From Thermodesulfobium sp. 4217-1 (GTDB lineage: Bacteria; Thermodesulfobiota; Thermodesulfobiia; Thermodesulfobiales; Thermodesulfobiaceae): DNA of 57,962 bases. The notes beneath the pieces were generated by a model. That model worked only from the letters and a program-made list of their open reading frames with translations. It ran no database searches and was not told the DNA's origin. This document shows positions 17,522-56,223 of the stretch, one piece after another. The translations under genes were made by a program, and so were the position numbers. The DNA lies in NCBI RefSeq assembly GCF_039822205.1, contig NZ_JBAGBW010000014.1, positions 1-57,962 of the forward strand. Reading direction: 5' to 3'. Each line of letters opens with the position of its first letter. The stretch's first letter is position 1.

Positions 17522-20515
17522 ATGGGGAACATTAAAAGGAGGGACTTCTTAAAACTTACATTTGCAGGTGCTGCGGCAATGGTTATGGACGGCAATATTG
17601 CTGTGCCTGCAAGGGCTTCTGTAAAGCCCTTTAAGTTAAAAGATACTAAAGTAAGTCCTTCAGTATGTATTTATTGCGGTGTTGGCTGCGGACTATTGGT
17701 TTATGCGAAAGACGGCAAGGTAGTAAACATCGAGGGAGATCCTGATAATCCTAACAACGAAGGCGGACTTTGCGCAAAGGGTGCTACCTCATACAACGTT
17801 TATGTCAATCCTCTGAGATTGAAAAAGCCTATGTATAGGGCGCCAGGTTCTGACAAATGGGAAGAAAAAAGTTGGGATTGGACTATCAACGAAGTTGCAA
17901 AGAGGATTCTGAAAACAAGAAATGAAACCTTTGTAAAAGAAGTTGGTGGTGTTCCTGTAAATAGAACTGATGGACTTGTTCAGCTGGGCGGGGCATCTCA
18001 CGATACTGATGAATGCTATCTGCTGTCTAAGTTTGCAAGGTCTCTTGGGATAGTCTATCTCGAACACCAGGCTCGTATATGACACTCTTCCACAGTGGCC
18101 AGTTTAGGCCCTAGTTTTGGAAGAGGTGCAATGACAAATCCACTAACCGATGTAAGAAATTCAGATGTTATTATGATTTGTGGTGGGAATCCTGCCGAGA
18201 ATCACCCTGCTATTGCAAGATATATAAATATGTGTAAAGATTCTGGCGGGACTGTAATCTCTGTAGATCCAAGGTTTACGAGAACTTCTTCGCTATCTGA
18301 CATATATTCGCCGATAAGGCCAGGCACTGACATAGTGTTTTTTGGCGGTTTAATTAATTACATTATCCAAAACAAAAAGTATCAAGAAGTTTATATGAAA
18401 AACTACACAAATGCTTCTTGGTTATTAAAGCCTGAATATGAATTTAAGGACGGACATTTTTCTGGATGGGATGAAGCAAAGAGAATGTACAATTATGCAA
18501 GCTGGGGATTCCAAACGGGGCCAGATAAAAAGGTTTTGAAAGATATGACCCTTCAGGACCCAAATTGTGTGTTTCAAAGGCTTGCAGAGCATTATTCTCG
18601 ATATACGCCTGAAGTTGTAGAAAATGTAGCTGGAATGAAGAAGGAAAACTTCTTGAAAATTGCTGAGGTTTATGCTTCTACTGGAGCACCAGAAAAATCA
18701 GGTTGTTTGATATATGCTATGGGTCTAACTCAACATACTATCGGCACACAAAATATTAGGGCTTTTTGTATGATTCAGCTCTTGCTTGGAAATATGGGTA
18801 TGGCTGGTGGCGGAGTAAACGCTATGAGAGGCGAGGCAAACGTTCAGGGGTCTACTGATATGGGTCTTTTGTTCCATACTTTGCCAGGTTATCTGCCAGC
18901 ACCAAACGACAAATTGCATCCTAATCTTCAGGAATTTATTAAAAAATCTATCGCACCTGATAGTTACTGGGTTAACGCTCCGAAGTTTATTGTAAGCATG
19001 CTAAAGGCATGGTATGGAGATGCAGCCACAAAGGAAAACAATTTCGGATATGACTGGGTGCCAAAGTGGTCAAGGCCAGCTTCCTGGATGCACATATGGG
19101 ACAACCTATATAAAAATGAAGGAATTAAGGGCATGATGATCTGGGGACAAAACCCCCTGGTATCGAGTCCATTTGCTGATAAAACCGGTAAGGCGCTCGA
19201 AAACCTTGAATGGCTGATGCAAGCAGATTTATTTGAGACTGAAACAGCTAATTTCTGGAGAAGGCCTCATGCCGATACGAAAAATATTAAGACAGAAGTA
19301 TTTTTGCTGCCTGTGGCATCAATGGTAGAGAAAGACGGCTCAGCTACCAATACTTCCAGGTGGCTTCAGATGAGATATAAGTCAGTAGAGCCACTTTATG
19401 AATGCAGAGAAGATTCTGTAATAATGCACGACTTAATTCATAAAATAAAAGATCTGGTAAAGGCTGATCCGTCTACGCCAAGTCCAGAATCAATACTGAA
19501 CTTAACATGGGATTACGGTGGACACAACCATAGTGCGGATGAGGTATTTAAAGAAATTAATGGCTTTGAGGTGGCAACGAAAAAACAAGTTCCAGGTTTT
19601 GCTGCGCTAAAAGATGATGGTTCTACTACAAGCGGTTGCTGGATATATTCTGGGATGTTTCCTCCTGCAGGAAATCTTGCTAAGAGGAGGAAACCAGAAA
19701 AAACTGGACTGGGACTCAATCCTGAATGGGGTTGGGCATGGCCTGTAAATAGAAGAATTCTTTACAATAGAGCTGGATGTGACCTGGAAGGCAATCCTTG
19801 GAATCCTGAAAAATATGTTATAAAGTGGGATGCTGGGCAGAAGAAGTGGCTGGGGCGAGATGTTCCTGACTTCTTACCTACAAAAGCTCCGTCAGACGCC
19901 GGAGGAACGCTGCCATTTATCATGCTTACTGGCGGACAGGGAAGAATATTTGTTCCTGGCGGTATAGTGAAAGATGGCCCTGTCCCTGAACACTATGAGC
20001 CAATTGAGTCGCCAGTTGCAAATAAAGTAAATCCTGTACAGAACAATCCAATTGCTGTGATATTTAAGTCAAACATAGACAAGTATGCCCCACTCAACGA
20101 TCCAAAATTCCCATATATTTGTACTACATATAGGGTTGCAGAACATTATCAATCGGGTGCAATCACAAGAAAAATACCTATAACCGTAGAAGCTATGCCA
20201 CAAGTTTTCGCTGAGATCGATCCTGAACTTGCAAAAGAGCTTAACATAAAAGATGGTGACAATGTCGAATTGGAATCCATAAGGGGCAAGGTTAAAGCTA
20301 AGGCATGTGTCACTACCAGGGTCCAGCCGATGACAATCAATGGCAAGAAATATCATGTAGTTGGTATTCCATGGAACTGGGGTTTTGTCGGTATAGATCC
20401 TGATAGCGGTAAAGACGAATCATTTGCTGCAAATCTTGTAACAGAGAATGTAGGGGATCCTACAAGCCTTATTCCAGAATCCAAAGCTTTGATGATTAAC
20501 TTGAGGAGGGCCTAA
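17522..20515 (+). CDS. Formate dehydrogenase catalytic subunit, selenocysteine form (UGA at 18080-18082)
   Basis: A 997-residue protein if the in-frame UGA is read as selenocysteine at residue 187. Tat signal KRRDFLKL (5-12) directs export. A [4Fe-4S] site is formed by Cys49, 52, 56 and 84, followed by the molybdopterin oxidoreductase domain and a C-terminal dinucleotide-binding domain from about residue 880. Around the UGA the product reads QARI-U-HSSTVASLGPSFGRGAMTN; the paralogue at 23758 has Cys there, and FdnG-type enzymes have Sec. The frame continues unchanged for 811 codons after the UGA, and a SECIS-like hairpin follows it. It oxidises formate to CO2 at a Mo or W bis-pyranopterin centre on the outer face of the membrane. 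Followed one base later by its iron-sulfur subunit. Confidence 0.93.
18085..18125 (+). promoter_or_regulatory. Bacterial SECIS element
   Basis: Directly after the UGA, CTCTTCC (18085-18091) pairs perfectly with GGAAGAG (18119-18125). Inside, GGCC (18097-18100) pairs with GGCC (18107-18110) around loop AGTTTA (18101-18106). The apical loop lies 18 bases after the UGA, in the range seen for bacterial SECIS elements that bind SelB. The hairpin is inside coding sequence. The equivalent stretch of the Cys paralogue does not keep the upper stem and has a mismatch in the lower stem. Confidence 0.8.
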
Positions 20516-20516
20516 A

Positions 20517-21296
20517 ATGGAAAGAGTGGCCTATATGTACGATTCTTCTAAGTGTATGGGTTGTAGGGGGTGCCAGAGTATTTGTAAGGAATGGAACGAT
20601 CAAAAAACCGATCCTACAACTTTTAATGGGGTATATACCAATCCTCCCAGTCTAAATCCTGATACCAGGATGATTATAAAATTTTATGACACATTTACTC
20701 CTGATCCAAATTTTAACTTTTTAAAATATCAGTGTTTCCATTGCGGAGATCCTGCATGTGTAAAGGCATGTCCAAGCGGAGCTCTTTTTCAGGCAGAAAA
20801 CGGCATAGTAGCATTTGATGAAAACAAGTGTATAGCATGTGGATACTGTCATAGTGCCTGTCCATTTGGGATTCCGCAAATTGGAAAAGTGATAAACAAA
20901 TGCGATATGTGTTATTCAAGGGTTATGGAGGGTTCTGAATCTGATAAAACTTCTACACCTGCCTGTGTAAAGAGCTGCCCTGCGGGCGCACTTACTTTTG
21001 GGAAAAGAAATGATTTGGTTGAGCAAGGCAAGAAAAAGGTTGAAATTTTGAAAAATAAAGGCTACACAGAAGCAAATCTTTATGGAGAAAATATTCTTGG
21101 GGGATTAGGAGTTCTGGCTATACTAAAGTATTCTCCTGAAAAATATGGTCTTCCAAAGGAACCTACATTTCCTAATGATATTGGTTTGTGGAAAGGCATA
21201 TTACATCCTTTAGGAGTAATAATGTTAGGAGGCGCAGCTGGTTTTGTCGTGCTTCATAGAGCGCTTAACCTGGGGAAAAAGGGAGGTGATCAATAA
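20517..21296 (+). CDS. Formate dehydrogenase iron-sulfur subunit (FdnH-like), copy 1
   Basis: 259 residues. Four ferredoxin-type cysteine clusters carry electrons from the catalytic subunit to the cytochrome b: CMGCRGCQSIC (about 14-24), CFHCGDPACVKACP (about 74-87), CIACGYCHSACP (about 107-118) and CDMC...CVKSCP. A C-terminal membrane anchor (VIMLGGAAGFVVLHRAL) holds it at the membrane, as in FdnH. Start ATG lies one base after the catalytic subunit stop, with GGAGGG upstream. The stop overlaps the next start. Confidence 0.93.
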   Translation: MERVAYMYDSSKCMGCRGCQSICKEWNDQKTDPTTFNGVYTNPPSLNPDTRMIIKFYDTFTPDPNFNFLKYQCFHCGDPACVKACPSGALFQAENGIVAFDENKCIACGYCHSACPFGIPQIGKVINKCDMCYSRVMEGSESDKTSTPACVKSCPAGALTFGKRNDLVEQGKKKVEILKNKGYTEANLYGENILGGLGVLAILKYSPEKYGLPKEPTFPNDIGLWKGILHPLGVIMLGGAAGFVVLHRALNLGKKGGDQ

Positions 21297-21946
21297 TGGC
21301 TGTAGAAAAGATTGAAAAACATAAGAAAAATACGAGGATATTTCACTGGTTGCACTTAATAACATTTATAGTAATGCTCTGGACTGGAATTTCTTTGTTT
21401 TATCCTTGGACCAATGTACTAGGTATGACTTTTGGCAGTCTTAGAAATGCAGCATTTATTCACAAATATCTTGGGTGGTTTTATGTGGTTCTTCCGATAA
21501 TTTATGTTTCCTGGAACTTCAAGCTATTTTCAAACTTTTTCAAAACTATTAGCACATTTACGCCCGAAGACAAGAAATGGTTATCTGTACTGGGTGGTTA
21601 TTTGCATCCCATAATAAAGACTGATGAAGTTCCTCCACAAGGCAAATACAATGCGGGGCAAAAACTCTTGGGTTGGATAATAATTGTTTTTTCAATTTTA
21701 CTGGGCATTACAGGGTTGGTTATGTTTTATTATGCGCTATTCCCTGGTTTATTGGTTCGAACGGCTATAATAGTTCACGTATTTTGTGGCACATTTTTAG
21801 GGGCTGCTGTGATTGTGCACTTTTACCTTGCTGCGGTTAATCCTACATCAAACAAAGAGTTGGGGACTATGCTTGGCAGTGGTATGATAGAGGAAGATTA
21901 TGTAAAACATCACAATGCGCTATGGTATGAAGATCTAAAAAAGTAG
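21296..21946 (+). CDS. Formate dehydrogenase cytochrome b subunit (FdnI-like), copy 1
   Basis: 216 residues with four membrane segments. Histidines in FHWLHLITF, HKYLGWFY and the VHVFCGTFLGAAVIVHFYL segment fit the two heme b sites of FdnI, which pass electrons to the quinone pool. Overlaps the iron-sulfur subunit by one base (TAATG). Ends the first three-gene operon, 10 bases before the first direct repeat. Confidence 0.93.
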   Translation: MAVEKIEKHKKNTRIFHWLHLITFIVMLWTGISLFYPWTNVLGMTFGSLRNAAFIHKYLGWFYVVLPIIYVSWNFKLFSNFFKTISTFTPEDKKWLSVLGGYLHPIIKTDEVPPQGKYNAGQKLLGWIIIVFSILLGITGLVMFYYALFPGLLVRTAIIVHVFCGTFLGAAVIVHFYLAAVNPTSNKELGTMLGSGMIEEDYVKHHNALWYEDLKK

Positions 21947-21956
21947 ACAGTTTCTA

Positions 21957-22051
21957 ATGATACAATAGATTTATAAAGTATATTTAATATTGTTTTAATT
22001 TGAGTGCAAGGTCTTATTTGGCTTTGCACTCAAAAATTGTAAATCTTTATT
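21957..22051 (+). repeat. Direct repeat A1 flanking hicBA, with hairpin
   Basis: 95 bases that recur at 22647-22742 with only two substitutions and one single-base insertion. It contains a hairpin: TTTGAGTGCAA pairs with TTGCACTCAAA (extended by GGTC/GGCT pairs to about 15 bp) around a TTATTT loop. No U-run follows the hairpin, so it is not a classical terminator. It lies between fdnI copy 1 and hicB. Confidence 0.93.
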
Positions 22052-22126: not shown

Positions 22127-22360
22127 ATGAGGGTTTTAAATTATCGTATATTTCTGAGAAGGGAGCCTGAAGGTGGTTACACGGTAACAGTTCCGTCGTT
22201 GCCAGGCTGTGTAACTTATGGTGATACATTAGACAATGCGGTGTTGATGGCAAAGGAGGCAATTGAGCTTTATATAGAAACCCTTGATTCTCATGGCGAA
22301 GATATACCGTTGGAAGATAACATATTTGAGACTACAGTCGCTGTAGAATCTAATGCCTAA
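22127..22360 (+). CDS. hicB: HicB-family antitoxin
   Basis: 77 residues with the HicB/UPF0150 fold: LNYRIFLRREPEGGYTVTVPSLPGCVTYGDTLDNA and MAKEAIELYIETL are characteristic. Neutralises the HicA RNase by binding it. The protein stops after this domain; there is no C-terminal HTH or ribbon-helix-helix domain of the kind used by longer HicB proteins for autorepression. AAAGGAGGAG precedes the ATG. It overlaps hicA by 8 bases, so the order is antitoxin then toxin. Confidence 0.92.
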   Translation: MRVLNYRIFLRREPEGGYTVTVPSLPGCVTYGDTLDNAVLMAKEAIELYIETLDSHGEDIPLEDNIFETTVAVESNA

Positions 22361-22577
22361 ACTGCCTTCATTAACTTCTCAGAAGGTGATATATATTCTT
22401 CAAAAAAAAGGATTTATACTTGAGAGAACAAAGGGGAGTCATCATATCTATATAAATTTAGAAACTAAAAGAATGGTAGTTGTGCCGTTTCATAAAAAAG
22501 ACCTGCTAAATGGGACGCTTCTTGAGATATTAAAACAGTCAGGTATAAGCAAAGAAGAACTAGAAAAATTGATTTAG
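22353..22577 (+). CDS. hicA: HicA-family mRNA interferase toxin
   Basis: 74 residues, slightly longer than the usual HicA of about 60. Double-stranded-RNA-binding-like fold with the catalytic histidine in TKGSHHIY (about 25-33), then VVPFHKKDLLNGTLLEILKQSGIS, the family's C-terminal signature. Cleaves mRNA when free of HicB. Start ATG lies within the end of hicB. The pair sits between the two formate dehydrogenase operons and is bracketed by direct repeats. Confidence 0.93.
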   Translation: MPKLPSLTSQKVIYILQKKGFILERTKGSHHIYINLETKRMVVVPFHKKDLLNGTLLEILKQSGISKEELEKLI

Positions 22578-22646: not shown

Positions 22647-22742
22647 ATGATAAAATAGATTTATAAAGTATATTTAATAATTGTTTTAATTTGAGTGCAA
22701 GGTCTTAATTGGCTTTGCACTCAAAAATTGTAAATCTTTATT
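22647..22742 (+). repeat. Direct repeat A2 flanking hicBA, with hairpin
   Basis: 96-base second copy of the repeat at 21957-22051, including the same hairpin (TTTGAGTGCAA with TTGCACTCAAA). It ends immediately before the GGAGG ribosome site of fdhE, so it forms the fdhE leader. Recombination between the two copies would remove hicBA and leave one repeat. Confidence 0.93.
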
Positions 22743-22752
22743 GGAGGTATAT

Positions 22753-23538
22753 ATGAATTTAACAAAATATGTAGAAAAGTACCCAATATTAGAATCTGTT
22801 GCTGGGTTTTGGGAAAACTATTTTTCTTGTAGAGATAAGTTGTTATCTAAACTACCTGATTTTATTTCATTAGATAGCATTAAAGTTGAAGAATTTAAAA
22901 AAGCCTTTGATGAAGGCAGACCGTATTTAGATTTATTTAAGCTAAAGATATATAAGAAGGATCTAAATTTTTTGGCAAAAGTTGTAAAAGATGATTTTGG
23001 CATAAAAGAAAAGGTAAAGTTTGATGAAAAGGATTTACCGATATTTGACAAATTAATTTTATCTGAGGATGAAATAGGCTTTGTAAAGCTAATCGTTTAT
23101 TCTTCAATTTATTCATATATTGGCGAGATAATAATGAAAAACTTTAGTCTTGCAAAGTGGTATGAGCCTATTTGCCCTGTTTGCGGTTCAAGAGCTGGCA
23201 TGGGATTTATAGAGGGGGATGGAAAGAAGAGCCTGGTATGCTCTACTTGTTATACCAGGTGGGGACACAGGAGGACAGCTTGCCCTGTATGTGCTGATGA
23301 AGAACAAAAGTCAATGAGATATTTTAGCGTAGATGAGCTTCCTGGGTGGAGAGTAGAGGTTTGCGAGGCTTGTGGGATGTATTTAAAGGTTTTGGATTTA
23401 AGAGAAAAAAATGAGGATACGCCCCTTTATCCTTTGCTTTATCTTTCGAGCTGGGATCTGGACATTTCAGTGAAGGACTTAAATTTCAGACCATCCTGGT
23501 TCAAGATATTTTATGCTGCATCCTGGCTTAATAAATAA
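22753..23538 (+). CDS. fdhE: Formate dehydrogenase accessory protein FdhE
   Basis: 261 residues. The central CPVCGSRAGMG...CSTCYTRWGHRRTACPVC...CEACG arrangement of four CxxC pairs is the rubredoxin-like iron-binding signature of FdhE, a cytoplasmic protein needed to mature Tat-exported formate dehydrogenases. The N-terminal 140 residues are helical. An upstream TTG in frame at 22741 overlaps the ribosome site; ATG 22753 follows GGAGG with normal spacing. Its position between two fdn operons suggests it serves both. Confidence 0.9.
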   Translation: MNLTKYVEKYPILESVAGFWENYFSCRDKLLSKLPDFISLDSIKVEEFKKAFDEGRPYLDLFKLKIYKKDLNFLAKVVKDDFGIKEKVKFDEKDLPIFDKLILSEDEIGFVKLIVYSSIYSYIGEIIMKNFSLAKWYEPICPVCGSRAGMGFIEGDGKKSLVCSTCYTRWGHRRTACPVCADEEQKSMRYFSVDELPGWRVEVCEACGMYLKVLDLREKNEDTPLYPLLYLSSWDLDISVKDLNFRPSWFKIFYAASWLNK

Positions 23539-23703: not shown

Positions 23704-23745
23704 CTTGATAGTGTTTTGAAATTATAAAATATATTCACTATCAAG
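23704..23745 (+). repeat. 10-bp inverted repeat just upstream of the Cys formate dehydrogenase operon
   Basis: CTTGATAGTG (23704-23713) and its exact complement CACTATCAAG (23736-23745) are separated by 22 AT-rich bases. The right arm runs into the ribosome site AAGGGAG. It may be an operator for a dimeric regulator or an RNA hairpin controlling translation. The Sec operon has no counterpart. Confidence 0.7.
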
Positions 23746-23757
23746 GGAGTGAAATGA

Positions 23758-26754
23758 ATGGGGAAATTTAATCGAAGAGATTTTCTAAAGCTTTCCTTTG
23801 CTAGTGCTGCGATGATGGTATTCGATGGCAATGTAGCTGTGCCGAAGGTTGCCTATGCAAGCACACCCTTTAAACTGAAGGATACCAAGGTTACAAATTC
23901 TGTATGTATTTATTGCGGAGTTGGCTGTGGTCTTTTAGTCTATTCAAAGGGCAGCAAGGTGGTAAATGTCGAAGGAGATCCTGACAATCCAAATAGTGAA
24001 GGCGGGCTTTGTGCAAAGGGCTCTACCTGTTTTAGCGTTTACGATAGCCCATTGAGGTTGAAAAAACCAATGTATAGGGCTCCTGGTTCTGACAAGTGGG
24101 AAGAGAAAAGCTGGGATTGGACTATTTCTGAGCTTGTCAAAAGAATCAAAAAAACTCGAGATAGTTCGTTTGTAAAGACGTCAAACGGAGTAGCAGTAAA
24201 TAGAACTGAGGGACTTGCGATGCTTGGCGGTGCGGCACATGGTACCGATGAGTGTTATCTGTTTGCAAAAGTTGCCAGGGCGCTTGGCATAGTTTATCTG
24301 GAGCATCAGGCAAGAATATGTCACTCTTCTACTGTTACTGCCTTGGGGCCAAGCTTTGGCAGAGGGGCAATGACAAATTCTCTGATAGATGTGAAAAATT
24401 CTGATGTAATAATGATATGCGGCGGAAATCCTGCAGAGAACCATCCAGGCAGCGCGCGCTATATCAATATGTGCAAAGAACGCGGCGGCAAGGTTATTTC
24501 TGTGGATCCGCGATTCACGAGAACATCTGCGATCTCAAACATCTATGCTCAGATAAGGCCTGGTACTGATATTGCATTTTTCGGTGGTTTGATAAACTAT
24601 ATTCTTCAAAACAATAAATATCAGGATATTTATGTAAAACACTATACCAATGCGTCTTATCTCTTGAAACCTGAATTTGATTTTCAGGATGGATATTTTT
24701 CAGGATGGGATATAACTGGTAAATCATATAATTATGCAAGCTGGGCATATCAAACTGGTCCTGATAAGAAGCCATTGAGAGACATGACCCTTCAAGATCC
24801 AAGCTGTGTGTTTCAGAAAATGAAGCTTCATTATTCAAGATATACCCCTGATGTTGTTGAAAAAATCACAGGGATTAATAAGGAAACCTTCCAAGAGATA
24901 GCACAATTGTATAGCTCAACTGGTGCGCCAGATAAGTCTGGCACATTGATGTATGCGATGGGCCTAACCCAGCACACTATTGGCACGCAAAACATCAGAG
25001 CTTTTTGTGTTATTCAGCTTTTGCTGGGCAACTTAGGTATGGCTGGTGGTGGAGTAAATGCAATGAGAGGGGAGACCAATGTTCAGGGTTCTACTGATAT
25101 GGCTCTTCTTTATAACTCTTGGCCTGGCTATCTTGCTGCCCCGAACGAAAAGCTTCATCCAAATTTCAAGGAATATCTGAAAAAGATTACGTTGCCTGAT
25201 TGCTATTGGTCTAATGCGCCAAAGTTTGCAGTTAGCATGCTTAAGGCATGGTTTGGAGACGCAGCTACGAAAGAAAATGATTTTGGCTATGATTGGCTTC
25301 CAAAGTGGTCCAAGCCAGCTTCATGGATGTATATCTGGGATAATTTGTACAAAAATGAAGGAATTAAGGGAATGATGATCTGGGGTCAGAACCCATTGGT
25401 ATCAAGTCCCTTGGGTGACAAAACTGGCAAGGCATTAGAAAACCTTGATTGGCTTATGTCTGCTGATATCTTTGAAACCGAAACGGCTAACTTCTGGAGA
25501 AGACCAGGCGCTGATCCAAAAAGCATAAAAACTGAAGTTTTTATGCTCCCTATATCTTCATTTGTAGAGAAAAATGGTTCGGCTACCAACACTTCCAGAT
25601 GGCTTCAGATGAGATACAAGGCAATAGAGCCGCTTTATGAGTCTAAAGAAGACATGGTTGTATTGGATGGTCTTGTGCGTGGTTTAAAGAAGCAATTTAA
25701 AGACGATCCTTCTACCCCTTCTCCTGAAGCTATGCTTAACTTAACTTGGGGTTATGGCGGAGATAAATATGATATTAATTCTGTGTTAAAAGAAATTAAC
25801 GGTTTTGAGGTTGCAACGAGAAAACAATTAGTTAGTTTTGCAGCCCTTAAGGATGATGGCTCTACGGCATGCGGCTGTTGGATATATTCAGGAGTATACC
25901 CGCCGGCAGGAAATTTGGCTGCAAGGAGAAAGCCTGAAAAAGAAGGAATAGGCCTTAATTCTGAATGGTCATGGTCATGGCCCGTAAACAGAAGAATTCT
26001 ATATAACAGAGCCAGTTGCGATTTGGAGGGCAATCCCTGGAATCCAAAGTTGTCTGTCATTAGTTGGGATAGCGCTCAAAAGAAGTGGACTGGCCGAGAT
26101 ATACCTGATTTTCTGCCAACAAAGGCGCCAAGCGCACCTGGTGGGGATGCTCCTTTCATAATGATACCAGAGGGCGGAGGAAGGCTTTTCGTCCCTGCTG
26201 GTATAGTGAAAGACGGTCCATTCCCTGAGCATTATGAGCCAATAGAAGCTCCTGTGAAAAATCTTATAAGCTCTGTCCAAAATAATCCTGTGGCTATAGT
26301 TTTCAAATCAAACATTGATAAATATGCCCCCTTAAACGATCCAAAATACCCATATATATGCACTACATATAGATTGACAGAACACTATCAAAGTGGAACT
26401 ATAACCAGAAAGATTCCGATCTTAGTCGAAGAGATGCCGCAGGTCTTTGCAGAAATAGACCCTGAACTTGCAAAAAATCTTGGGATTAAAAATGGTGACA
26501 AAGTAGAGCTCGAATCTATCAGAGGCAAGGTAAAGGCACAAGCTTGTGTTACATCCAGGCTGCAGCCTATTATGATTGATGGCAAAAAGTTTCATATAGT
26601 TGGGATACCTTGGCATTGGGGCTTTGTAGGAATAGATCCTGATAGCGGCAAAAAAGAATCTTTTTCTGCTAACCTGATGACTGAAAATGTAGGGGATCCG
26701 ACTTCTGAGATTCAAGAGTCCAAAGCGTTGATGATTAACTTGAGGAGGGCCTAA
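23758..26754 (+). CDS. Formate dehydrogenase catalytic subunit, cysteine form
   Basis: 998 residues, a full-length paralogue of the protein at 17522. Tat signal NRRDFLKL near the N-terminus; [4Fe-4S] cysteines in SVCIYCGVGCG and GGLCAKG; molybdopterin domain; C-terminal domain with VELESIRGKVKA. The catalytic selenocysteine is replaced by Cys188 (TGT at 24319-24321, context RICHSSTVTALG). Cys enzymes of this family are usually slower but do not need selenium. Same gene order and one-base spacing to the next gene as in copy 1, so the whole operon was duplicated. The inverted repeat at 23704 lies just before it. Confidence 0.95.
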   Translation: MGKFNRRDFLKLSFASAAMMVFDGNVAVPKVAYASTPFKLKDTKVTNSVCIYCGVGCGLLVYSKGSKVVNVEGDPDNPNSEGGLCAKGSTCFSVYDSPLRLKKPMYRAPGSDKWEEKSWDWTISELVKRIKKTRDSSFVKTSNGVAVNRTEGLAMLGGAAHGTDECYLFAKVARALGIVYLEHQARICHSSTVTALGPSFGRGAMTNSLIDVKNSDVIMICGGNPAENHPGSARYINMCKERGGKVISVDPRFTRTSAISNIYAQIRPGTDIAFFGGLINYILQNNKYQDIYVKHYTNASYLLKPEFDFQDGYFSGWDITGKSYNYASWAYQTGPDKKPLRDMTLQDPSCVFQKMKLHYSRYTPDVVEKITGINKETFQEIAQLYSSTGAPDKSGTLMYAMGLTQHTIGTQNIRAFCVIQLLLGNLGMAGGGVNAMRGETNVQGSTDMALLYNSWPGYLAAPNEKLHPNFKEYLKKITLPDCYWSNAPKFAVSMLKAWFGDAATKENDFGYDWLPKWSKPASWMYIWDNLYKNEGIKGMMIWGQNPLVSSPLGDKTGKALENLDWLMSADIFETETANFWRRPGADPKSIKTEVFMLPISSFVEKNGSATNTSRWLQMRYKAIEPLYESKEDMVVLDGLVRGLKKQFKDDPSTPSPEAMLNLTWGYGGDKYDINSVLKEINGFEVATRKQLVSFAALKDDGSTACGCWIYSGVYPPAGNLAARRKPEKEGIGLNSEWSWSWPVNRRILYNRASCDLEGNPWNPKLSVISWDSAQKKWTGRDIPDFLPTKAPSAPGGDAPFIMIPEGGGRLFVPAGIVKDGPFPEHYEPIEAPVKNLISSVQNNPVAIVFKSNIDKYAPLNDPKYPYICTTYRLTEHYQSGTITRKIPILVEEMPQVFAEIDPELAKNLGIKNGDKVELESIRGKVKAQACVTSRLQPIMIDGKKFHIVGIPWHWGFVGIDPDSGKKESFSANLMTENVGDPTSEIQESKALMINLRRA

Positions 26755-26755
26755 G

Positions 26756-27535
26756 ATGGATAGAGTGGCCTATATGTTCGATTCTTCTAAATGCATGGGT
26801 TGTAGAGGGTGCCAATCTGTTTGTAAGCAGTGGAACGATCAAAAAACTGACCCTACTACTTTTAATGGATTTTACACAAATCCTCCAACTTTGAATCCGC
26901 ATACGCGTATGATTATAAATTTCTACGATGATTTTACTGAGAAACAGAACTTTAATTTTCTTAAATATCAGTGTTTTCACTGTGGAGATCCTGCTTGCGT
27001 AAAGGCGTGTCCAAGCGGTGCCCTGTTCCAAGCAGAAAATGGCATAGTAGCATTCGATGTAAACAAGTGTATAGCATGTGGATATTGTCATAGCGCGTGT
27101 CCATTTGGGATTCCGCAAATCGGTCAAGTGATAAATAAATGTGATATGTGTTATTCAAGGGTTATGGAGGGCAGCAAATCTGATGAAACTGCCACACCTG
27201 CCTGCGTAAAAGCATGTCTGGGAGGGGCGCTGTATTTTGGCAAGAGAGACGATCTAGTGAAGCAAGGAAAAGAAAAGGTTGAAATTTTGAAAAAAGAGGG
27301 CTTTACAGAAGCGAACCTCTATGGTGAAAATATACTTGGGGGCTTGGGAGTACTGTCTATACTAAAATATGAACCTGAAAAATATGGCCTGCCAAAAGAT
27401 CCTGTTTTTCCAGTAAATACTCTTATCTGGAAGAATATAATGCATCCACTTGGGCTGGTGATGTTGGGTGGTGCTGCTGGTCTGGTATTTCTTCACAGAA
27501 TACTGCAGACTGGCAATAAAGGAGGCGATCAGTAA
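26756..27535 (+). CDS. Formate dehydrogenase iron-sulfur subunit (FdnH-like), copy 2
   Basis: 259 residues, same length and cysteine layout as copy 1: CMGCRGCQSVC, CFHCGDPACVKACP, CIACGYCHSACP, CDMC and CVKACLGG. In the last cluster the copy 1 proline after the fourth cysteine is Leu here. C-terminal membrane anchor (LVMLGGAAGLVFLHRIL). DNA around its start is almost identical to copy 1. Transfers electrons from the Cys catalytic subunit to the cytochrome b. Confidence 0.93.
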   Translation: MDRVAYMFDSSKCMGCRGCQSVCKQWNDQKTDPTTFNGFYTNPPTLNPHTRMIINFYDDFTEKQNFNFLKYQCFHCGDPACVKACPSGALFQAENGIVAFDVNKCIACGYCHSACPFGIPQIGQVINKCDMCYSRVMEGSKSDETATPACVKACLGGALYFGKRDDLVKQGKEKVEILKKEGFTEANLYGENILGGLGVLSILKYEPEKYGLPKDPVFPVNTLIWKNIMHPLGLVMLGGAAGLVFLHRILQTGNKGGDQ

Positions 27536-28185
27536 TGGCAAAAAAGATGATTGAAAAACACAAAAAGGCTACTCGTATCTTTCACTGGATTCACCTTATA
27601 ACTTTTATAGTAATGCTTTGGACGGGATTATCTTTGTTTTATCCTGCAATGAACGTTATGGGATTGACTTTTGGGAGCCTAAGAAATGCTGCTTTTTTGC
27701 ATAAATATCTTGGATTTTTCTATTTGTTGCTTCCGCTCTCTTATGCAGCATTTAATTTCAATCTATTTTCTAAATTTATAAAACTTATCAGCACCTTTAC
27801 GCCAGAAGACAAGAAATGGATGAAGGTCTTTGGAGGATATCTTGCTCCACTGATAAAGGCAAAAGAGGTTCCTCCACAGGGCAAGATCAATGCTGGGCAG
27901 AAGCTTTTGGGATGGATAATTATCGTATTTTCTTTGTGCCTTGGCTTAACTGGCTCTATGATGTTCTTCTATGCATCTTTTCCTGGATATTTGATTCAAC
28001 TGGTGATAATTGTTCATGTATTTTGCGGCACATTTTTGGGTTCAGCAATCATTGTCCACTTTTATCTTGGGGCAGTCAATCCTAGTTCAAGAAAAGAGCT
28101 TGGAACAATGCTTGGCAATGGAATGATCGATGAAGAGTACGTAATGAAGCACAATGAGTTGTGGTATGAGGAGTTAAAGAAGTAA
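27535..28185 (+). CDS. Formate dehydrogenase cytochrome b subunit (FdnI-like), copy 2
   Basis: 216 residues, same length as copy 1, four membrane segments. Histidines in FHWIHLITF, HKYLGFFY and VHVFCGTFLGSAIIVHFYL provide the heme ligands. Overlaps the preceding stop by one base. Ends the second operon, just before a strong terminator. Confidence 0.93.
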   Translation: MAKKMIEKHKKATRIFHWIHLITFIVMLWTGLSLFYPAMNVMGLTFGSLRNAAFLHKYLGFFYLLLPLSYAAFNFNLFSKFIKLISTFTPEDKKWMKVFGGYLAPLIKAKEVPPQGKINAGQKLLGWIIIVFSLCLGLTGSMMFFYASFPGYLIQLVIIVHVFCGTFLGSAIIVHFYLGAVNPSSRKELGTMLGNGMIDEEYVMKHNELWYEELKK

Positions 28186-54347: not shown

Positions 54348-54872
54348 TTGACTATATTAGAATTTTCTTTTAGAAACAGCATTGGATCCTTTCCTGTAGT
54401 GCATGAAATTTCTGAGATATATAGCTTTATAAATAAAGATTTTTCACCCTTTCCAAATTATAGGGTTTTACAGCTCTCAGCTATTGAAGATGATTTGGCA
54501 AGCATAAAGGTTTCGCCTTTCTTTTCAGTACTTTTCTGCGCAGGTAAGGCTTTCCTCTCTAAGGGAATAAGATTTGATGTGAGAGATGTTAGTTTTTATA
54601 ATATGTCGCGAAATTTGTTTTCTTTTGATGATGTTAAAGAAAATATTAATTTATGTAGATTTCATTATAGAGGCAATGTAAGGCCTTTGAAAGATTTGTT
54701 TTTAGGATTGGATTCAGATTTTTTTAATGAAAGGTCTATAGATATTAAGTGTTTATATCTTTTTAACATATTTGAGGGGTTGTTTCTCCCTATGCCAGAA
54801 GAAGAAGTTGTTTTTGAGAATAAGTTAGGCAATTTCAAATTTGTCTGTGAATTCAACAATATAATTAGGTAA
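54348..54872 (+). CDS. Unrecognised 174-residue protein coupled to selA
   Basis: I do not recognise this protein. It is soluble, without signal peptide or membrane segments, of mixed predicted alpha/beta character, with four scattered cysteines and no metal motif. A segment CRFHYRGNVRPLKDLFLGLDS near residue 103 (shown only by its ends CRFHYRG and FLGLDS) is the most motif-like part. TTG start with AAGGAG at 54334-54339. Its stop is one base from the selA start, so it is almost certainly translated with selA. That context suggests a role in selenium or selenoprotein metabolism, which is inference only. Confidence 0.75.
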   Translation: MTILEFSFRNSIGSFPVVHEISEIYSFINKDFSPFPNYRVLQLSAIEDDLASIKVSPFFSVLFCAGKAFLSKGIRFDVRDVSFYNMSRNLFSFDDVKENINLCRFHYRGNVRPLKDLFLGLDSDFFNERSIDIKCLYLFNIFEGLFLPMPEEEVVFENKLGNFKFVCEFNNIIR

Positions 54873-54873
54873 A

Positions 54874-56223
54874 ATGGACTTTTCTCAACTCCCTTCAATA
54901 TCTTATATTTTGGAAGAGATAAAAAAAAGTGATATTGAAATTCCACATGACTTATGTGTATTGGTTAGTCAGAGAGAGGTGGAGATTTCAAGACAGCTAA
55001 TTAAGAGTGGCAAGAGCATTGCCAAGGACAAAGTAATCGAAAGTGTTTTGGTCAAATTAAAATTTTTTAGCAATTCTGTACTCAGAAGACTGATTAACGC
55101 CACAGGAATTATTGTACACACCAATCTTGGAAGATCTCCTTTGAACGAGTCTGTAGCTAAAGAAGTGGCTAAAATAGCTACTAACTATTCAAACCTTGAA
55201 TACGATCTTTTTAATAATAAAAGAGGTAAAAGAGATTCTCTGGTGAGAGATTTACTGGTAGCCCTCACAGGAGCCGAAGATGCAACGGTGGTGAATAATA
55301 ATGCTGCTGCTGTTTATATAATTTTAAATACTATTGCGAATAACAAAGAAATTTTAATTTCAAGGTCTGAGCTCATTGAAATTGGTGGATCATTTAGGAT
55401 TCCTGATGTAATATCGTCTTCTGGAGCAATTCTGAAGGAAGTCGGGACAACCAATAAAACTCATTTAAGAGATTATGAAAATAACTTAAACGAATTAACT
55501 GGCGCTATTATGAAGGCTCACCAAAGCAATTTTTATCAAGAGGGATTTGTTCACAGTGTAGAAATTGAAGAATTGTCAGATCTTGCTAAGAAAAAAAATA
55601 TTTTATTTTTTGAAGATTTGGGCAGCGGATGCCTGGTTGATTTAAGGAAATATGGTTTAAATCACGAACCTACTGTGCAGGAAAGTTTGAAAAAGGGTGT
55701 AAATATCGTTAGCTTCTCTGGAGATAAATTGCTTGGTGCAGGGCAGTGTGGAATTATTTTGGGTGAAAATAGATTGATTGAGATGATTAGAAAGAACCCT
55801 CTAATGAGAGTATTGAGAGTTGACAAGATGACTTTGTGCGCTCTTGAGGGGACTTTGAGATTGTATCTTGATAAACGACATGAAGAAATACCTGTTTATA
55901 AAATGTTGTCGAAAACCGTAGATGAAATGATAGTTGATGCAAAAAAGGTCATCAATAACGTAAAAAATGACAATTTAATACTGAAAATTCTTGAAAGCGA
56001 AGGCAGACTTGGCGGTGGATCTACCCCTAAGAGCTCTTTCAAAACTATTGGAGTAGGGTTGATGCATAAAAAATTATCGATAAAAGAGATTGAAACTTTT
56101 CTGACAAGAAGAGATGTGCCCATAATTGGCAGGGTCTTGGATGAATATTATTTTCTTGATATGAAGACGGTTTTTCAGGACGATATTGATTTTATCTCGA
56201 GCACATTAAACCAAATGCATTAG
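54874..56223 (+). CDS. selA: L-seryl-tRNA(Sec) selenium transferase (selenocysteine synthase)
   Basis: 449 residues. PLP enzyme that converts Ser-tRNA(Sec) to Sec-tRNA(Sec) using selenophosphate. Seen: RLINATGIIVHTNLGRSPL near residue 72, NNNAAAVYIIL, and SFSGDKLLGAGQCGIILG with the PLP lysine (family SGDKLLGGPQ). ATG one base after the preceding stop. Usually followed by selB; here the next genes are convergent, so selB, selC and selD must lie elsewhere. It provides the machinery for the UGA-containing formate dehydrogenase at 17522. Confidence 0.96.
   Translation: MDFSQLPSISYILEEIKKSDIEIPHDLCVLVSQREVEISRQLIKSGKSIAKDKVIESVLVKLKFFSNSVLRRLINATGIIVHTNLGRSPLNESVAKEVAKIATNYSNLEYDLFNNKRGKRDSLVRDLLVALTGAEDATVVNNNAAAVYIILNTIANNKEILISRSELIEIGGSFRIPDVISSSGAILKEVGTTNKTHLRDYENNLNELTGAIMKAHQSNFYQEGFVHSVEIEELSDLAKKKNILFFEDLGSGCLVDLRKYGLNHEPTVQESLKKGVNIVSFSGDKLLGAGQCGIILGENRLIEMIRKNPLMRVLRVDKMTLCALEGTLRLYLDKRHEEIPVYKMLSKTVDEMIVDAKKVINNVKNDNLILKILESEGRLGGGSTPKSSFKTIGVGLMHKKLSIKEIETFLTRRDVPIIGRVLDEYYFLDMKTVFQDDIDFISSTLNQMH

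Follow-up and report, generated by a model that had tools for sequence, protein, structure and literature searches.

The gene at positions 17522-20515 almost certainly encodes the catalytic subunit, with selenocysteine (Sec), of an FdnGHI-type formate dehydrogenase that is predicted to be bound to the membrane and to face the periplasm, and the adjacent operon, which carries cysteine at the same position, would be its back-up isoform. This reading was developed from sequence comparisons of the window, i.e., the whole stretch of 57,962 nucleotides of Thermodesulfobium sp. 4217-1 that was analysed, and of the genome to which it belongs. All window features described below are on the + strand.

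An In-Frame UGA at the Catalytic Position

The reading frame of this fdhA/fdnG-type gene is broken by a single UGA at 18080-18082. Translated with TGA as U, it yields 997 residues with Sec at position 187 (U187) and zero further stops. The first-pass annotation, made from the DNA letters alone, had described a frame that was open apart from this UGA, and this was borne out; its count of 811 further codons corresponds to 810 sense codons plus the stop. Its expectation that automatic annotation would split the gene was reproduced by mechanical ORF calling, which returned one protein of 186 aa (17522-18082) and another of 806 aa with a GTG start (18095-20515).

The 997-residue protein matches the family of formate dehydrogenase-N alpha subunits (TIGR01553) over residues 3-995 with 1184 bits (cut-off 814). 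PF04879, PF00384 and PF01568, representing the Fe4S4, molybdopterin and dinucleotide-binding domains, all exceeded their cut-offs, and both PDB 1h0h and E. coli FdnG (1kqf) were full-length matches. Residue 187 aligns with a non-standard residue of 1h0h, the x of EHQARIxHS, and is followed by H188, so that the UGA stands at the metal-ligating position with His next to it. A twin-arginine (Tat) signal, RRDFLK, was spotted by eye at the N-terminus. With the nitrate-inducible E. coli FdnG and the formate dehydrogenases 1h0h, 6sdr and 8cm4 the protein shares homology over its full length, the Sec position, the Tat signal and a SECIS directly after the UGA, although it is only about half identical to them. 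Among the selenoproteins of bacteria, FdhA with Sec is the most widespread one (PMC13188914).

Conservation of the codon points in the same direction. Both congeners whose contigs cover the site (G001 and G003) carry TGA at codon 187 and are otherwise free of stops, while the contig of the third congener (G002) begins downstream of the UGA and codon 187 is unreadable there. Across the 89 homologues compared, codon 187 was TGA in 78 and Cys in 11. Chance can be excluded as the source of the UGA, because it is shared by both readable congeners and by so many homologues. Together with the 1h0h alignment, the 78 TGA-bearing homologues also confirm the earlier proposal that the UGA occupies the catalytic Sec position of FdnG-type enzymes. 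Among the three orthologues, dN/dS was ~0.02-0.03 upstream and ~0.03 downstream of the UGA (dS ~1), which indicates that selection is equally strong on both sides.

The SECIS Hairpin

The UGA is followed by a bacterial SECIS hairpin at 18085-18125. Its lower stem pairs 18085-18091 with 18119-18125, and its upper stem pairs 18094-18095 and 18097-18100 with 18107-18112, leaving a bulged U at 18096. The apical loop AGUUUA (18101-18106), with GU at 18102-18103, is 6 nt long, one nt longer than the loop of most relatives. Numbered from the U of the UGA as 1, the bulge is U17 and the loop dinucleotide is G23-U24, which we take to be the positions contacted by SelB in E. coli fdhF. U17 was found in all 70 distinct Sec sequences, and GU at 23-24 in 46 of the 70. 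According to the published bacterial SECIS model, the loop measures 3-9 nt with a G at its first or second position, the upper stem has 4-16 bp, the distance from the UGA is 16-37 nt and the minimum free energy (MFE) is at most -7.5 (PMC13188914). The hairpin described here fits this model, with its 6-nt loop, G in second place, a distance of 18 nt from the UGA and -18.2 kcal/mol.

The 43 bases after the UGA (18083-18125) fold with this MFE of -18.2 kcal/mol at a z-score of -3.9, and 0 of 200 dinucleotide shuffles folded as well. Protein-preserving recoding, in which synonymous codons were drawn from those of the window's own genes, offers a stricter control than shuffling. Here the Sec copy reached -19.3, the recodings averaged -8.7 (sd 2.4), and none of the 5000 was as good. 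The matching stretch of the Cys copy scored -11.0 and was equalled by 14% of its synonymous recodings; hence no sign of a SECIS remains in that copy.

The pairing is also reflected in sequence change. At pair 19-30 (18098/18109), the G-C of the window corresponds to A-U in both congeners; the first of the two changes replaces Ala by Thr, and its partner leaves the encoded Gly unaltered. Across 37 homologues, read in the register of a 5-nt loop, the upper-stem pair 18-30 occurs as CG, GC, UA and GU types, and the covariation score of this set was reached by 0 of 500 shuffles and lay above all slid controls too; this gap-free alignment of 37 rows mixes 5- and 6-nt loops, the rows of the genus fail in its structure, and the SECIS of the genus was judged separately, from its three rows alone. 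Over the first 15 codons past the UGA, only 2-3 of 14-15 codons changed synonymously among the Sec copies, which is a weak signal of constraint on its own, with 5-10% of other stretches as low; synonymous change in the same stretch of the Cys copies was not unusual. A scan of the window with Rfam reported only tRNAs and no SECIS, which we regard as uninformative because the bacterial SECIS is too variable for a general model. Overall, the SECIS-like hairpin noticed at first pass is upheld by its fold, the synonymous recodings, the covariation and its loss from the Cys paralogue.

Selenocysteine Machinery

The Sec-decoding trait is complete, with selA, selB, selC and selD all present in the genome above curated cut-offs. 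As already noted at first pass, selA, encoding L-seryl-tRNA(Sec) selenium transferase, lies in the window ~34 kb downstream (54874-56223; TIGR00474, 526 bits, cut-off 268). The first-pass annotation had also made its reading depend on the other three genes, and each was found: the tRNA-Sec gene (selC) at G000:C11:24289-24378 (76.1 bits, cut-off 47), selB ~40 bases downstream of it (349 bits, cut-off 242), and selD at G000:C8:52822-53745 (325 bits, cut-off 125).

Since both the full machinery and the required RNA hairpin are present, we read the UGA as a selenocysteine codon. SelA, with selenophosphate supplied by SelD, would produce Sec-tRNA(Sec). SelB would bind the hairpin at 18085-18125 and bring the charged tRNA to the UGA at 18080-18082, and the inserted Sec187 would then ligate the cofactor's Mo or W.

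SelD, too, is encoded as a selenoprotein: the frame of its gene contains a TGA at the GxU active site (RCAGUAAKL), where SelD is known to carry Sec. Directly upstream of selA, an ORF of 174 residues (54348-54872) matched neither NCBIfam nor Pfam and is a possible candidate for a selenium-related gene. FdhA and SelD are the selenoproteins that were found, in a search that beyond these covered two common families: the FlpD/MvhD family has three copies in the genome, none with an in-frame UGA, and no copy of the HesB-like family was found. A Thermodesulfobium genome has been listed with four selenoproteins (PMC12013277).

Alternative Explanations for the UGA

An intact Cys paralogue 3 kb downstream might suggest that the gene is a pseudogene, ended by a genuine nonsense mutation, and that the paralogue took over its function. 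This is very improbable. Strong purifying selection acts on the part of the gene after the UGA (dN/dS ~0.03, as before it), which in effect rules out a pseudogene, and there is no other damage to the frame. Moreover, the congeners keep the same TGA, the SECIS folds far better than its synonymous recodings, and the genome contains the complete Sec machinery. The view of the first-pass annotation, that the gene encodes a selenoprotein and is not a pseudogene, is supported by the conserved TGA, the dN/dS values, the machinery and the hairpin.

The codon could also be decoded in another way, by a UGA-suppressor tRNA or through a reassigned code in which UGA stands for Trp or Gly. We assign next to no probability to this explanation. 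Nothing specific speaks for it; the sole other in-frame TGA that was found, in selD, is also at a known Sec position. Against it, UGA also occurs here as an ordinary stop, closing for instance the reading frame of selD; tRNA-Sec, selB and a SECIS are all present, and the residue is the known Sec site. A sequencing or assembly error, with the UGA standing for TGT or TGC, would agree with the TGT at the matching codon of the paralogue, but it is vanishingly improbable, because TGA recurs in independent genomes of the genus and in many other species, and the Sec-type hairpin is confined to the TGA copies within the genus.

A Duplicated Operon with Cysteine

The Sec-type alpha gene is followed by genes for a beta subunit with 4Fe-4S clusters (20517-21296; best NCBIfam family TIGR01582, 228 bits, cut-off 335) and a cytochrome b gamma subunit (21296-21946; TIGR01583, 110 bits, cut-off 116). 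The alpha-beta-gamma order is the same as in fdnGHI. Compared to the FdnGHI type, the beta and gamma subunits have formate dehydrogenase families as their best matches but score under the curated cut-offs of these families, and we therefore consider both subunits divergent.

A second operon at 23758-28185 repeats this arrangement, with an alpha subunit (23758-26754; TIGR01553, 1192 bits), a beta subunit (26756-27535) and a gamma subunit (27535-28185), the latter two again with TIGR01582 and TIGR01583 as best families. In line with the first-pass annotation, this alpha paralogue has Cys, encoded by TGT at the matching codon (Cys188, 24319-24321), and it lacks a SECIS. Identity between the two operons is 76% for alpha, 82% for beta and 75% for gamma. 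In the tree, a single clade (support 100), nested among Sec sequences, unites the genus's Sec and Cys copies and splits into two fully supported sub-clades. From this topology it follows that the three-gene operon was duplicated before the radiation of the genus and that one copy then changed from Sec to Cys. The converted copy most likely acts as a selenium-independent back-up. Changes of this kind have precedent, as FdhA accounted for 46.7% (7/15) of the Sec-to-Cys changes in one bacterial survey (PMC1794560). The tandem arrangement itself is not common, since no second FdhA was found near homologues elsewhere at any of 79 loci, 40 of which had full 8-kb flanks.

Between the two operons lies a gene for a divergent FdhE-like formate dehydrogenase accessory protein (22741-23538; TIGR01562 with E 6e-13, under cut-off; PF24859 with 26.8 bits vs. 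27), whose near-cut-off matches cover only the central and C-terminal domains. The stretch from the Sec operon to this fdhE gene contains a HicB/HicA toxin-antitoxin pair (22127-22360 and 22353-22577; PF15919 and PF07927 above cut-off). The pair is flanked by a direct repeat of ~95 bp, 97% identical (21957-22051 and 22647-22742), each copy of which contains a terminator-like hairpin. Two congeners have a single hairpin at this site and no HicB/HicA pair, and hence the pair looks like an insertion accompanied by duplication of its flank.

Comparison with Known Sec/Cys Pairs

Paired Sec and Cys formate dehydrogenases have been described before. FdhF2 and FdhF1 of Acetobacterium woodii are about 80% identical, and the transcript levels of fdhFsec and fdhFcys of Treponema primitia respond oppositely to selenium (PMC6288185). 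As in our window, these species have two paralogues in one neighbourhood, one with Sec and one with Cys. However, their pairs are FdhF-type enzymes in HDCR-like clusters, whereas here a whole membrane-type operon of three genes was duplicated. Methanococcus maripaludis also has pairs of Sec and Cys isoforms, of which the Cys isoforms serve under selenium shortage (PMC11097638), but this archaeon differs in the enzymes concerned and in its type of SECIS.

An Inverted Repeat Upstream of the Cys Copy

An inverted repeat, CTTGATAGTG-N22-CACTATCAAG, with 10-bp arms and a 22-nt middle, abuts the Cys copy's ribosome-binding site (23704-23745) and is absent before the Sec copy. Its core pattern has a single occurrence per genome in all four genomes of the genus, always before the Cys copy; the 9-bp core arms were fixed in the search pattern, so that only the place of the repeat, its uniqueness in each genome and its constant spacing are informative. 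Further copies with up to 3 mismatches were not found in its own genome, and no regulon is definable. An A+T-rich genome could yield such a repeat by chance, and the case for a candidate regulatory element rests on its conservation in place.

The repeat might act as an operator or form a leader hairpin; a role in the response to selenium is a guess. One could imagine a selenium switch in this genus, made up of the Sec and Cys operons, in which the repeat at 23704-23745, acting as a DNA operator or as a leader hairpin beside the ribosome-binding site, is the site where selenium status represses the Cys operon. We consider this rather unlikely.

Implications

The gene is an intact and ordinary member of the best-known family of bacterial selenoproteins, and both the Sec enzyme and Sec/Cys pairs are already known elsewhere. 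The only mildly new element is the genus-conserved inverted repeat that abuts the Cys copy alone, as a possible regulatory site. For annotation, our results mean that 17522-20515 should be treated as a single gene for a selenoprotein of 997 residues, neither as a pseudogene nor as two genes. The adjacent Sec and Cys operons, present genus-wide, offer a tractable case for studying the use of selenium versus sulfur in formate metabolism.
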